Shown: in pieces, positions 14,433 to 23,251 of the stretch
Layout of the letters: the number at the start of each line of letters is the position of its first letter
How positions within the stretch are numbered: position 1 is the stretch's first letter
Source of the DNA: Leptospiraceae bacterium
GTDB lineage: Bacteria > Spirochaetota > Leptospiria > Leptospirales > Leptospiraceae
Length of the DNA: 64,000 bases
NCBI GenBank assembly: GCA_022402465.1
Contig: JAKRSH010000044.1
Location: 1 to 64,000, forward strand
Reading direction: 5' to 3'
Notes under the pieces: model-generated
The model's database searches: none
What the model was told of the DNA's origin: nothing
Seen by the model: only the letters and a program-made list of their open reading frames with translations
Position numbers and translations under genes: made by a program

Positions 14433-14741
14433 TTACGACTTAATATCAACTGAAACACCAGCGGGAAGCTGAAGTTTCATAAGGGCTTCAACAGTATCTT
14501 CATTTGTATTGAGGATATCAATTAGCCTTTTGTGTGTTCTCATTTCGAATTGTTCTCTCGCTTTTTTATTCACGTGAGGAGAACGTAAAACTGTATAAAT
14601 TTCCTTCTTAGTAGGCAAAGGAATTGGACCAGAGACAGTAGCTCCAGTCCTTTTCGCAGTGGCTACGATTTCATAGGTTGATTGGTCAATCAACCTATGA
14701 TCAAAAGCTTTTAATTTAACTCTGATTCGTTGGCCTGTCAT
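14433..14741 (-). CDS. rpsJ: 30S ribosomal protein S10
   Basis: Head protein that also acts as NusE with NusB in antitermination. It starts [20 protein letters not shown], with [20 protein letters not shown] and the end AGVSVDIKS. Length 102 is normal. It lies nine bases after tuf, so the S10 group is fused directly to the str group. Confidence 0.98.
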
Positions 14742-14750
14742 GCTCTACTC

Positions 14751-15956
14751 TTACTCGATTATCGAGGCAACAACCCCGGAACCGATCGTTCTTCCACCTT
14801 CACGAATTGCAAACTTCAAACCTTGGTCCATAGCAATCGGGTGAATGAGTTCAATAGTCATAGTGATGTTATCACCAGGCATTACCATTTCTGCACCATC
14901 AGGAAGCTTAATGACTCCCGTAATGTCCGTAGTTCTAAAATAGAACTGTGGTCTGTAGTCATTGAAGAAAGGAGTGTGTCTTCCACCTTCGTCTTTAGTT
15001 AAAACGTAAACTTCAGACTTAAACTTCTTGTGAGGAGTAATGGATCCTGGCTTCGCAAGAACTTGGCCTCTTTCGATATCTTCTTTTTTAGTTCCACGAA
15101 GAAGCACACCAACGTTATCACCAGCTCTTGCTTCATCTAGCAATTTACGGAACATTTCAATTCCAGTAACTACTGTTTTTGATGTATCTCTGATTCCGAT
15201 AATTTCGATTTCATCGTTGATCTTTAGAATTCCTTGCTCAACTCTACCAGTTGCTACAGTTCCTCGACCAGTTATAGAGAAAACGTCCTCAACAGGCATC
15301 AAGAAAGGCTTGTCAATTATTCTTGTAGGGTCTGGAATGTAAGTGTCAACTGCTTCCATCAATTTAATAATTGAAGTCATACCTAACTCAGAATCTTCCC
15401 CTTCTAGAGCCTTCAAGGCAGAACCAGAAACGAAAGGAGTCTTGTCACCAGGAAAGTTGTATTTATTTAAAAGATCTTTTATCTCTTCCTTTACCATTTC
15501 AACCATGTCTTCTCTTTCATCAGCAGCAAGCATGTCAGCTTTGTTAAGATAAACAACGATATAAGGAACACCAACTTGGCGAGCAAGTAAGATATGTTCT
15601 TTGGTCTGAGGCATAGCACCATCGGTAGCAGATACAACTAATATAGCCGCATCCATTTGCGCAGCACCAGTGATCATGTTCTTAACATAGTCAGCGTGGC
15701 CTGGACAATCTACGTGTGCGTAATGACGTTGTTCAGTTTCGTATTCTTGGTGCGATGTAGCAATAGTAATCCCACGAGCTTTTTCTTCAGGAGCGTTGTC
15801 GATCTGATCGTAAGCTATGGCTTTATTAGATCCGCCTAGCTTTTTCGCTAGGGTTGTTGTAATAGCAGCCGTTAGGGTAGTTTTGCCGTGGTCAACGTGA
15901 CCAATCGTACCAATGTTTAAGTGTGGTTTTGTTCTGTCGAATTTTGCTTTAGCCAT
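14751..15956 (-). CDS. tuf: Elongation factor Tu
   Basis: GTPase that brings aminoacyl-tRNA to the ribosome. The motifs are GHVDHGKT (P-loop, residues 19-26), RGITI (switch I), DCPGH (switch II), NKAD (guanine recognition, where most EF-Tu have NKCD or NKVD) and SGSAL. Domains 2 and 3 follow, with [13 protein letters not shown] and GGRHTPFF. Length 401 is typical. It lies between the EF-G-like gene and rpsJ. Confidence 0.98.
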
Positions 15957-15990: not shown

Positions 15991-17829
15991 CTAACGGGCC
16001 TGTCTTTCATTTAGAACGTTGTATTTTTCGGGGTTAAAGGAGTTTCTTTGGTAAGAAATACCAGTCCCTTTGGTCATATTTCTAAGGGCACCCGAAAAGC
16101 CAAGCAAGTTTTCAGTGCCTGCTCTGGCTAATACCATGGAATTAGATGAGTTCTTCTTAAGAATCTCGATTATTTGTGCATTCCTCTTCTGAAGCAGAGA
16201 CAATGTAGACCCCAAATGAATGTCATCCACTAGGATCTCCAAATCAGAAATTGGACCTATTATGTCCGTTTTCTCACTCAAAGCACTTCTAATTCCACTC
16301 ACAACAGCTATCTTAAGAAGAATTATGGATTGATCCGAATCGGCTTCAGGCGGTTCGAAGGAGTGCACAAGGCATTCCAGTCCTAATACTTCTAAATGAT
16401 AATTCCCACGAGACAGAGCCTCATGAAAACCTGTTGTAACTACATTTTGTATCTTTTCTGGGAGACTTACCTCAAAGGCAATTAGCTTCGAAAATCCGGC
16501 AGTATCTCTCAGAGTTGCACTGATTTTGCCACTGGAATGTTTATTTCCAAAGGCAGTGTGCTCAAAAACAATCTGTTTTTCCATGATTTTACTGCGCTCA
16601 TATCTTGCAACCTTCAATTCACCATAGGTAAATTTTTTATGGAATTTTTTCAATAAGCGATCTCTGAAAATTTCTAAATGAAGTTCACCCTGCCCCCATA
16701 GGCAGAAGCTACCGCTTTCTGGGTCTAGATCCATTCTGTAAGAAGGATCCTCCCAAACAATAGAGGACATACTTTCCCATAATTCATTTCTATCCTCACT
16801 TAAATCTGGTTCAACGATCACTGCAAAAGGAGAATCTATTATAGGTCGAGCTGGCTCAAGGATATTCAAATCAGGGGAGGCAAACATATCTCCCACTTCT
16901 ACACTTAGCACCTCTTTAGCCTTATCTCCGAATAAATTATAAATTTGGTTTATAGGAATGCTCTTGTTTTTAATATGTGCAAGGCTATTTTTTCTAAAAG
17001 GTTTGAGGGCTCTAGCAAATGTCAATTTACCCAGCTCTGAATGAATCATTCTTTTTGATACAATCAACTCATTACCATCTAGTGCAATTGGAATAGGAAA
17101 ATCCAATTGCGAGATTAGATTCATTATTTCAATAACACCTTTACCAAAGTAGGCTGAACCTCCTAAAACTGGAGTGAGCTTTTGAGTCACTATACCTTGG
17201 AACAATCCTCTTTGGGAGATATCATAGATTTTACTAGGGTGCTCCAAATATTCCGTGCTAAGCTCATCATTCCATTCAAAAAGATCCAAATGCTCTCTAT
17301 CTGAAAATTTTTCTGGATTTTGCCAGATTACATAGTTCTCATCTTCATGAAATAAAACGCAAGGTGACTTTCCTAAGATATCTTCTATGCTAATGATTGC
17401 TTCTGATAGATTTTCAGGATTTCGATCTAGCTTATTTATAAAAAATATTTCAGAAATCTTCTTATCTTGTAGTTCCTTATGAATCAATACAGTTTGGCTT
17501 TCAACACCCCTACTTCCATCTAAAACTACTATTGCAACATCTATAGAATCTAAAACAGATTCAACTTGGTTCCTAAAATCTAGGTGACCAGGTGTATCTA
17601 GAAGATTGATTTTTATTTTGGAATCATTTGTCTGAAGTTCAAATTGCATTAAACTAGAGAGAATGGAAATTCCTCTTTCAGCTTCTATATCCAATGAATC
17701 TGATTCGGTCGTCCCGTCTTCAATGCTTCCTACTGAGCGAATAGCGCCTGCTAGATGAAGTATTTGCTCAGTAAGAGTTGTTTTTCCAGCATCGATATGC
17801 GCAAATATACCTAAGTTAATAATCTTCAT
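15991..17829 (-). CDS. Divergent EF-G-like translational GTPase in the fusA position
   Basis: Predicted ribosome-acting GTPase of the EF-G/Tet(M) class. Visible motifs are G1 AHIDAGKTT (residues 10-18), RGISI (52-56), DTPGH (78-82), NKLD (132-135) and GGSA (223-226). Only about 95 residues separate NKLD from GGSA, shorter than the G-prime region of standard EF-G and close to Tet(M). The C-terminal domain ends with LLGFSGALRNMTKGTG, the domain V pattern, and domain IV loops are shortened. Length 612 is well below the usual ~700. The frame is open 14 codons upstream, but those codons form a terminator hairpin, so ATG 17829 is preferred. It could be a translocation or recycling EF-G paralogue or a ribosome-protection-type factor. 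A standard fusA is not in the window. Confidence 0.85.
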   Translation of the reverse strand: MKIINLGIFAHIDAGKTTLTEQILHLAGAIRSVGSIEDGTTESDSLDIEAERGISILSSLMQFELQTNDSKIKINLLDTPGHLDFRNQVESVLDSIDVAIVVLDGSRGVESQTVLIHKELQDKKISEIFFINKLDRNPENLSEAIISIEDILGKSPCVLFHEDENYVIWQNPEKFSDREHLDLFEWNDELSTEYLEHPSKIYDISQRGLFQGIVTQKLTPVLGGSAYFGKGVIEIMNLISQLDFPIPIALDGNELIVSKRMIHSELGKLTFARALKPFRKNSLAHIKNKSIPINQIYNLFGDKAKEVLSVEVGDMFASPDLNILEPARPIIDSPFAVIVEPDLSEDRNELWESMSSIVWEDPSYRMDLDPESGSFCLWGQGELHLEIFRDRLLKKFHKKFTYGELKVARYERSKIMEKQIVFEHTAFGNKHSSGKISATLRDTAGFSKLIAFEVSLPEKIQNVVTTGFHEALSRGNYHLEVLGLECLVHSFEPPEADSDQSIILLKIAVVSGIRSALSEKTDIIGPISDLEILVDDIHLGSTLSLLQKRNAQIIEILKKNSSNSMVLARAGTENLLGFSGALRNMTKGTGISYQRNSFNPEKYNVLNERQAR

Positions 17830-17869: not shown

Positions 17870-17924
17870 ATCCATTAAAGGTAACAATTCCCAATAAGTG
17901 AAACTGTTATTTAAGAAGAAAAAT

Positions 17925-18398
17925 TTACCAACGATAGTGACTAAAAGCTTTGTTTGCTTCTGCCATTTTTCTGATATCTTCTTTTTTCTTAATAGAAGAA
18001 CCAGTATTTTTCTGTGCTTCAATAAATTCACTGGCTAGTTTATTCTTCATAGATTTTTCATTTCTAGATCTTGAATACTTAATCAGCCAACGAATCCCAA
18101 GTGCCAATCTTCTTTCAGGTCGAACTTCAATAGGTACTTGGTAAGTAACACCACCAACTCTACGAGATTTAACTTCAACTTGAGGCTTAACATTTTCTAA
18201 AGCTTCTGTGAAAACTTGGTGTGGATCCAAACCAGTTTTTTTATTGATTATTTCAAGAGCATCATAGAAAACTTTTTCTGCGGTACTTTTCTTTCCATCA
18301 ACCATTAAACAATTGATAAATTTAGAGATAGTTTGGTCTCCGTATTTTGGATCGCCCTCAATGGCTCTTGGTTCAACTTTTCCTCTTCTTCTAGACAT
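17925..18398 (-). CDS. rpsG: 30S ribosomal protein S7
   Basis: Head assembly protein near the E site. It starts MSRRRGKVEPRAIEGDPKYG and includes NCLMVDGKKSTAEKVFYDAL, GGVTYQVPIEVRPERRLALG and the end EANKAFSHYRW. Length 157 is normal. It lies 14 bases after rpsL. Confidence 0.98.
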   Translation of the reverse strand: MSRRRGKVEPRAIEGDPKYGDQTISKFINCLMVDGKKSTAEKVFYDALEIINKKTGLDPHQVFTEALENVKPQVEVKSRRVGGVTYQVPIEVRPERRLALGIRWLIKYSRSRNEKSMKNKLASEFIEAQKNTGSSIKKKEDIRKMAEANKAFSHYRW

Positions 18399-18412: not shown

Positions 18413-18787
18413 TTAAGCCTTAGGCCTTTTAGCTCCGTATTTAGATCGTGACTTTCTTCTCTTGTCTACACCAAGTGTATCAAGTGTTCCTCTGATAATA
18501 TGATATCTAACCCCAGGTAAATCCTTTACCCTACCACCACGGATCAAAACCACGTTGTGTTCTTGAAGATTATGGCCTTCGCCAGGAATATAGGCAGTTA
18601 CTTCGATGCCAGTAGTGAGTCTTACCCTTGCTACCTTTCTCAAAGCTGAGTTTGGTTTCTTAGGTGTAAAAGTCATTACTCTCGTACAAACCCCCCTTCT
18701 TTGAGGTGAGCTCTTTAAAGCAGGTGATTTAGTCCTCTTTTTTTGCAATTTTCGCCCGTGGCGAATGAGTTGATTAATTGTTGGCAT
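18413..18787 (-). CDS. rpsL: 30S ribosomal protein S12
   Basis: Decoding-centre protein. It starts [14 protein letters not shown] and has [20 protein letters not shown] and [17 protein letters not shown]. The lysines equivalent to E. coli Lys43 and Lys88 (in TPKKPNS and GRVKDLPG) are unchanged, so the protein looks like the streptomycin-sensitive form. Length 124 is normal. It follows rpoC by 75 bases with no terminator seen between. Confidence 0.98.

Positions 18788-18862: not shown

Positions 18863-23251
<4,389 letters not shown>

Follow-up and report, generated by a model that had tools for sequence, protein, structure and literature searches.

The window analysed here is a stretch of 64,000 nucleotides from a Leptospiraceae bacterium (GCA_022402465.1, contig JAKRSH010000044.1, positions 1 to 64,000). 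Its minus strand carries, in this order, rpoC, rpsL, rpsG, lEFG, tuf and rpsJ (Table 1). The lEFG gene is an intact open reading frame encoding a 612-aa EF-G-like GTPase; the plus strand of the same interval contains 39 stop codons. An alternative ATG at position 17871, 42 bases upstream, would yield a protein of 626 aa. The 612-aa start was preferred on the basis of homology, relatives starting with MKxxIxNIGIFAH near the same position, and no obvious Shine-Dalgarno sequence was found upstream of either start. The reading frame is regarded as real rather than as a product of chance, because it matches NCBIfam model NF009892 over its full length (E 3e-174), is kept in 8/8 genomes of its family and shows a dN/dS of 0.14-0.16. 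The 3' end of rpoC (18863-19134) encodes a long acidic low-complexity tail, and an antisense Leu/His-rich open reading frame over this tail is probably spurious.

Table 1. Features of the lEFG locus, with positions in the window.
Feature	Position	Strand	Basis or remark
rpoC	18863..23251	-	
rpsL	18413..18787	-	
rpsG (S7), upstream neighbour	17925..18398	-	gene order
lEFG gene, reduced EF-G-like GTPase, 612 aa	15991..17829	-	stop codon 15991-15993; start by homology
G domain, first part (residues 1-136): P-loop, switches I and II, NKLD	17422..17829	-	alignment
P-loop AHIDAGKTT	17776..17802	-	alignment
Switch I RGISI	17662..17676	-	alignment; RGITI in ordinary EF-G, spdEFG2 and Tet
Switch II DTPGHLDF, catalytic His retained (8/8)	17575..17598	-	alignment
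Shortened G' region to G5 motif (residues 137-222)	17164..17421	-	alignment
G5 helix and shortened domain II (residues 223-332)	16834..17163	-	alignment
Domain III (residues 333-405), 73 aa	16615..16833	-	alignment; Pfam EFG_III 52.9 bits
Domain IV (residues 406-522), without translocation loop motifs	16264..16614	-	alignment
Domain IV loop 1 position: G-NKHSS, vs GGRGQY	16531..16548	-	alignment
Domain IV tip loop position: EPPEADSDQSI, vs SYHDVDSNE	16324..16356	-	alignment
Domain V and short C-terminal tail (residues 523-612)	15994..16263	-	alignment; Pfam EFG_C 33.6 bits
tuf (EF-Tu), downstream neighbour	14751..15956	-	gene order
rpsJ	14433..14741	-	

NF009892 ('elongation factor G-like protein') matches lEFG with 580.9 bits over model positions 1-622 of 623 (window 16009-17829), the next best model reaching 214.5 bits. 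Scores with this model ranged from 458 to 581 bits in all 8 family genomes and were at most 231 elsewhere, with 0/14 controls matching. The curated cut-off of 640 is reached neither by lEFG nor by any of the 8 family genomes; as it drops all 8, it under-calls its own family and not this member alone. Judging from these scores, NF009892 is in effect the lEFG model. lEFG was described in Leptospira by Atkinson 2015 (PMC4342817), whose consulted passages on lEFG venture that it is the missing spdEFG2 and mention neither the str-slot position nor the spread beyond one genus. The second EF-Gs of L. interrogans had been left out of the tree of Margus 2011 for their extensive deletions (PMC3150367). 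Taken together, the model match and these two reports identify lEFG as a member of a known, uncharacterised family, ordinary in kind as a lineage-specific EF-G paralogue. A search of the literature for locus tags and essentiality data returned nothing on the gene.

The P-loop, DTPGH and NKxD motifs are retained in 8/8 lEFG proteins. Across these 8 family members, 35% of the residues are invariant in the first part of the G domain, 4% in domain II and 9% in domain IV. The switch I Thr is replaced by Ser in 8/8. Domain III, at 73 aa, agrees in length with almost every EF-G sequence in the comparison. The G' region, domain II and domain IV of lEFG are shorter than those of 14 class EF-Gs. The NKxD-to-G5 span comprises 82-91 aa, against 120 in class EF-G, 115-123 across the EF-G groups, 117-141 in the divergent group spd2b and 86 in Tet. 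Domain II measures 109-130 aa (146-152 aa in class EF-G) and domain IV 116-117 aa (121 aa). Single-sequence AlphaFold prediction of lEFG gave a mean pLDDT of 36.6 and was not usable.

The motifs GGxGQ, GGxIPxxY and [YF]HxVDS are each absent from lEFG (0/8), spdEFG2 (0/13), divergent spdEFG2-like sequences (0/4) and Tet (0/2), while all three are present in 14/14 class EF-G I and, respectively, in 20/20, 20/20 and 19/20 spdEFG1. The loop 1 Gly pair is found in 0/8 lEFG; 6 of the 13 spirochaete spdEFG2 retain GG, yet none of them has GGxGQ. The tail after domain V, counted for lEFG with a small insertion ahead of the end, is 10-17 aa long, compared with 7-14 in spdEFG2, 16-27 in EF-G I, 22-28 in spdEFG1 and 32-34 in Tet. 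With its lost translocation loop motifs and short tail, lEFG resembles spdEFG2. It shares with EFG I (ordinary fusA) the str operon position, seen as rpsG-lEFG-tuf in the window and in genome G001, but neither the size of ~700 aa nor the GGxGQ/HxVDS loops. The original prediction, a TetM-sized, divergent 612-residue EF-G in the fusA slot between rpsG and tuf, with shortened G' region, changed domain IV loops and further reduction relative to other EF-Gs, is borne out by these data.

The source assembly, split over 45 contigs, totals 3.99 Mb, with a completeness of 100 and a contamination of 0.55. Using lEFG as a query against its own genome retrieved one full-length EF-G (C28), RF3/LepA/TypA-type proteins, EF-Tu and one more GTPase; at E ≤ 1e-40, C28 and RF3 were the only other matches to the EF-G model, and a scan of the genome contigs returned one distant locus only. 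The genome contains exactly two EF-G-type genes, lEFG and C28, and no third EF-G. C28 encodes 712 aa, lies off the str operon and has, in switch I, the KDG insertion by which spdEFG1 is recognised (Margus 2011, PMC3150367). Its best match is human mitochondrial EF-G1 at 781.6 bits, ahead of the highest-scoring bacterial EF-G chain (688.5). By its sequence, C28 is of the spdEFG1/mitochondrial EF-G1 type. spdEFG1 is therefore accompanied by no ordinary EF-G I in this genome, as is characteristic of spdEFG2-containing genomes. RRF is encoded by one normal gene, and a rate comparison within the family revealed no RRF acceleration paralleling that of lEFG.

Among 296 Spirochaetota searched, lEFG was detected in 8/8 genomes of family f1, at 33-39% identity to the window protein, and at comparable strength in 0/288 others. 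Outside f1, weak matches only were obtained at E ≤ 1e-30 (best 9e-37), corresponding to near-full-length EF-Gs and Tet-like genes. spdEFG1 was found in 7/8 family genomes, and together with the restricted distribution this agrees with a Leptospira-type EF-G standing beside spdEFG1. From genome size, gene content and a literature on lEFG confined to Leptospira, we infer that f1 corresponds to Leptospiraceae (GTDB sense), f2 to the Leptonema group and f3 to the Turneriella group. Families f2-f6, from within the same order and class, have a single, ordinary EF-G (~700 aa) at precisely this position. Within f1, five genomes besides the window genome and G001 carry lEFG-tuf with no rpsG alongside or with the contig ending there, and lEFG stands apart in G002. 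The tuf gene beside lEFG in G005 (L017 / L079) is interrupted (two BLAST pieces, 335-aa open reading frame), possibly through an assembly error. In f1, spdEFG1 lies outside the operon, and the sole str-linked KDG-type spdEFG1 seen is that of G189; no spdEFG2 gene examined from another spirochaete occupies the str slot. Between the close relatives G005, G006 and G007, lEFG shows a dN/dS of 0.14-0.16 and spdEFG1 one of 0.042; the family genera share on average 39% identity in lEFG and 83% in spdEFG1. lEFG is functional, under selection about three to four times looser than that on spdEFG1.

Further EF-G complements were recorded in the course of this survey. In two further spirochaete families, represented by G053 (L110 versus L109) and G085 (L168 versus L170), the domain IV loops are degenerate in the str-slot EF-G and retained in an off-operon copy; these are possible independent instances of the same division of labour. 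Two genomes contain an ordinary str-slot EF-G plus an spdEFG2-like EF-G with altered loops and a short tail (L102 in G050, L171 in G090), and no KDG-type spdEFG1 was seen among their EF-G copies examined. L106 (G051:C9), L188 (G063:C7) and L189 (G089:C26) are highly diverged proteins of EF-G2-like type (650-690 aa), and their G domains rank among the closest to that of lEFG (45-46% identity). L116 (G028:C299, family f2) is a divergent EF-G at the spdEFG1 base in a genome that also has an ordinary EF-G fragment, reflecting either contamination or a transitional state. Tet-like genes occur in family f22 genomes (L190, G146:C28; L150, G177:C1), the G146 copy grouping with Tet(W).

The combined data are best explained if lEFG is a recycling-specialised EF-G working with RRF, with spdEFG1 as the translocase, a reading to which we assign a probability of roughly 0.7; the recycling activity itself is a step from anatomy to function. 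GTP-bound lEFG would dock at the factor site of the post-termination ribosome beside RRF, and its domains III and IV would press RRF domain II onto bridge B2a, upon which the subunits would part. Translocation would fall to the off-operon spdEFG1. lEFG is proposed to be unable to translocate because its domain IV is devoid of the loops that enter the decoding centre, and it is probably restricted to recycling as a second full-length EF-G took over the motor job.

Such a partition has precedents. As summarised in a review (PMC9067457) of Suematsu 2010, Borrelia EF-G1 translocates only and EF-G2, on biochemical evidence, recycles only. In mitochondria, the inability of EF-G2 to translocate is ascribed to a loop 1 in which one of two conserved glycines is missing, and the inability of EF-G1 to recycle to a clash of RRF with its longer C-terminal helix and extension (PMC8203779, PMC9067457). 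The features given for recycling-only EF-G2mt are a loop 1 that has lost the Gly pair and a shorter C-terminal helix making room for RRF (PMC8203779). In sequence, the lEFG/spdEFG1 pair matches both halves of this pattern: the Gly pair and GGxGQ are each found in 0/8 lEFG and the tail is short, versus GGxGQ in 20/20 spdEFG1 and a tail of 22-28 aa. The recycling reading is further favoured by the GTPase motifs (8/8), the ordinary length of domain III, purifying selection and the presence of a normal RRF. Against it stand the poor fit with core spdEFG2 in the tree tests described below, the absence of RRF co-acceleration within the family and the fact that Gly pair loss is not absolute in spdEFG2. 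The shortened G' region and the switch I Ser could alter stalk contacts or hydrolysis. The original prediction had noted that spirochaetes divide EF-G work between paralogues, which is correct, and had proposed a search for a second full-length fusA; such a gene is present as the spdEFG1-type C28, and the single-copy genome that would have spoken against the prediction is not what was found. Its view that function is open stands experimentally, whereas the options it listed are no longer equal, translocation and tetracycline protection being disfavoured and recycling favoured by the loops and the C-terminus.

FastTree and IQ-TREE both place lEFG as a long branch beside divergent spdEFG2-like sequences; with a LepA/TypA outgroup it moves to the base, in a tree without support values. 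AU tests on all columns (607) accepted grouping with EFG II or with an EF-G I + spdEFG1 + EFG II group (p 0.59-0.67) and grouping with divergent spdEFG2-like types (p 0.29-0.44); for the divergent L106 type, p was 0.30-0.50 over the AU tests. For core spdEFG2, the best tree was likewise accepted (p 0.10-0.12) and a second, poorer tree gave 0.04 (mixture model), and this placement was rejected on the G domain or on G + domain III (p below 0.01). These p-values are guides only, since candidate trees were searched with unequal effort and lEFG forms a long branch. Group-specific residue counts were not decisive for its placement. Membership of EFG II was dismissed, as AHxDxGKTT and DTPGH are found in 8/8 lEFG, whereas EFG II has a changed P-loop and no switch II His.

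As to origin, lEFG may represent the resident str-operon EF-G I, freed from translocation on the arrival of spdEFG1, in which case a recycling-only EF-G would have arisen here independently of spdEFG2. This is compatible with the recycling explanation, and we consider it somewhat short of an even chance. Descent from the resident fusA is suggested by the ordinary EF-G that the sister families f2-f6 hold in the same slot. Consistent with it, the spdEFG2 genes examined in other spirochaetes never occupy that slot, and the str-slot EF-Gs of G053 and G085 have also lost their loops, the off-operon copies keeping them. On the other hand, trees that join lEFG to class EF-G I are 41-48 lnL worse on all columns (AU p 0.13-0.17), and both the G domain (p 0.001) and G + domain III (p 0.0025) reject this grouping, with long-branch attraction a possible cause. 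With the conserved G domain speaking against fusA descent and all columns not rejecting it, an origin separate from core spdEFG2 is possible; a divergent EF-G2 that replaced fusA in place is a possible alternative. Slightly more tentative still is the full proposal of a recycling-only EF-G separate from spdEFG2, formed through reduction or replacement of fusA after spdEFG1 took translocation, and unusually small, with a pared-down G' region and a switch I Ser.

EF-G paralogues with other roles occur in other phyla. lEFG might likewise be a stress or quality-control factor for stalled or hibernating ribosomes, with spdEFG1 recycling together with RRF; its rapid divergence (family genera averaging 39% identity versus 83% for spdEFG1), the switch I Ser and the reduced G' region would suit such a role. 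This is unlikely, however, as the str slot in the window and G001 and the tuf adjacency in five more genomes suggest production with ribosomes, and the accompanying spdEFG1 has the long C-terminal tail that blocks RRF co-binding in mitochondrial EF-G1 (PMC8203779).

A Tet(M)/Tet(O)-type ribosomal protection factor, ejecting tetracycline or a similar ligand, would have equal size and similar G' and domain II lengths. lEFG also matches the general Tet model NF012153 over its full length with 214.5 bits, equal to the EF-G model (210.8), and Tet(M) in the PDB with 138 bits. Yet 214.5 bits is far under the curated cut-off of 775, the loop motifs VPPNPFWAS and YYSPVSTPADF and the 32-34 aa tail are absent, and the borders of the G' deletion differ. 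Tet membership is out on score, loops, tail and deletion borders, and with lEFG a constant presence (8/8 genomes) within or close to a core operon, neither sporadic nor mobile, a protective function is very improbable. Least probable of all is a degenerate yet translocating EF-G or a decaying pseudogene product, which the low conservation of domains II and IV (4% and 9% invariant) might suggest, but the frame is open in 8/8 genomes, dN/dS is 0.14-0.16, the GTPase motifs are intact and no lEFG member has the translocation loop motifs.

Should lEFG prove to be a minimal EF-G dedicated to recycling, it would separate the parts needed for ribosome splitting from those needed only for translocation, adding a natural test to those offered by mitochondria and Borrelia. 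Lying in the fusA slot, the gene readily attracts the label EF-G, and the likely translocase is encoded elsewhere, which affects the reading of Leptospira expression data and of fusidic acid targets.

Among known systems, spdEFG2 (Borrelia EF-G2) is like lEFG in being paired with spdEFG1, in missing the translocation loop signatures and in its short tail; it differs in its full-length G' region and domain II and in its genome position, and a sister grouping of the two is unsupported by the trees. Human mitochondrial EF-G2 (GFM2), the top PDB sequence match to lEFG, likewise has an altered loop 1 and partners an EF-G1-type translocase, but it is of full size and its lead over bacterial EF-G is slight (183 vs 179 bits). 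Tet(M)/Tet(O)/Tet(S) share the length and G' size of lEFG and differ in loops, tail, deletion borders and score. A precedent for a str-operon recycler with an off-operon translocase is set by Pseudomonas aeruginosa, where EF-G1A, encoded in the str operon, appears to recycle and EF-G1B, encoded outside it, translocates (PMC3832671). The two P. aeruginosa copies are 84% identical, whereas lEFG and spdEFG1 are highly diverged.
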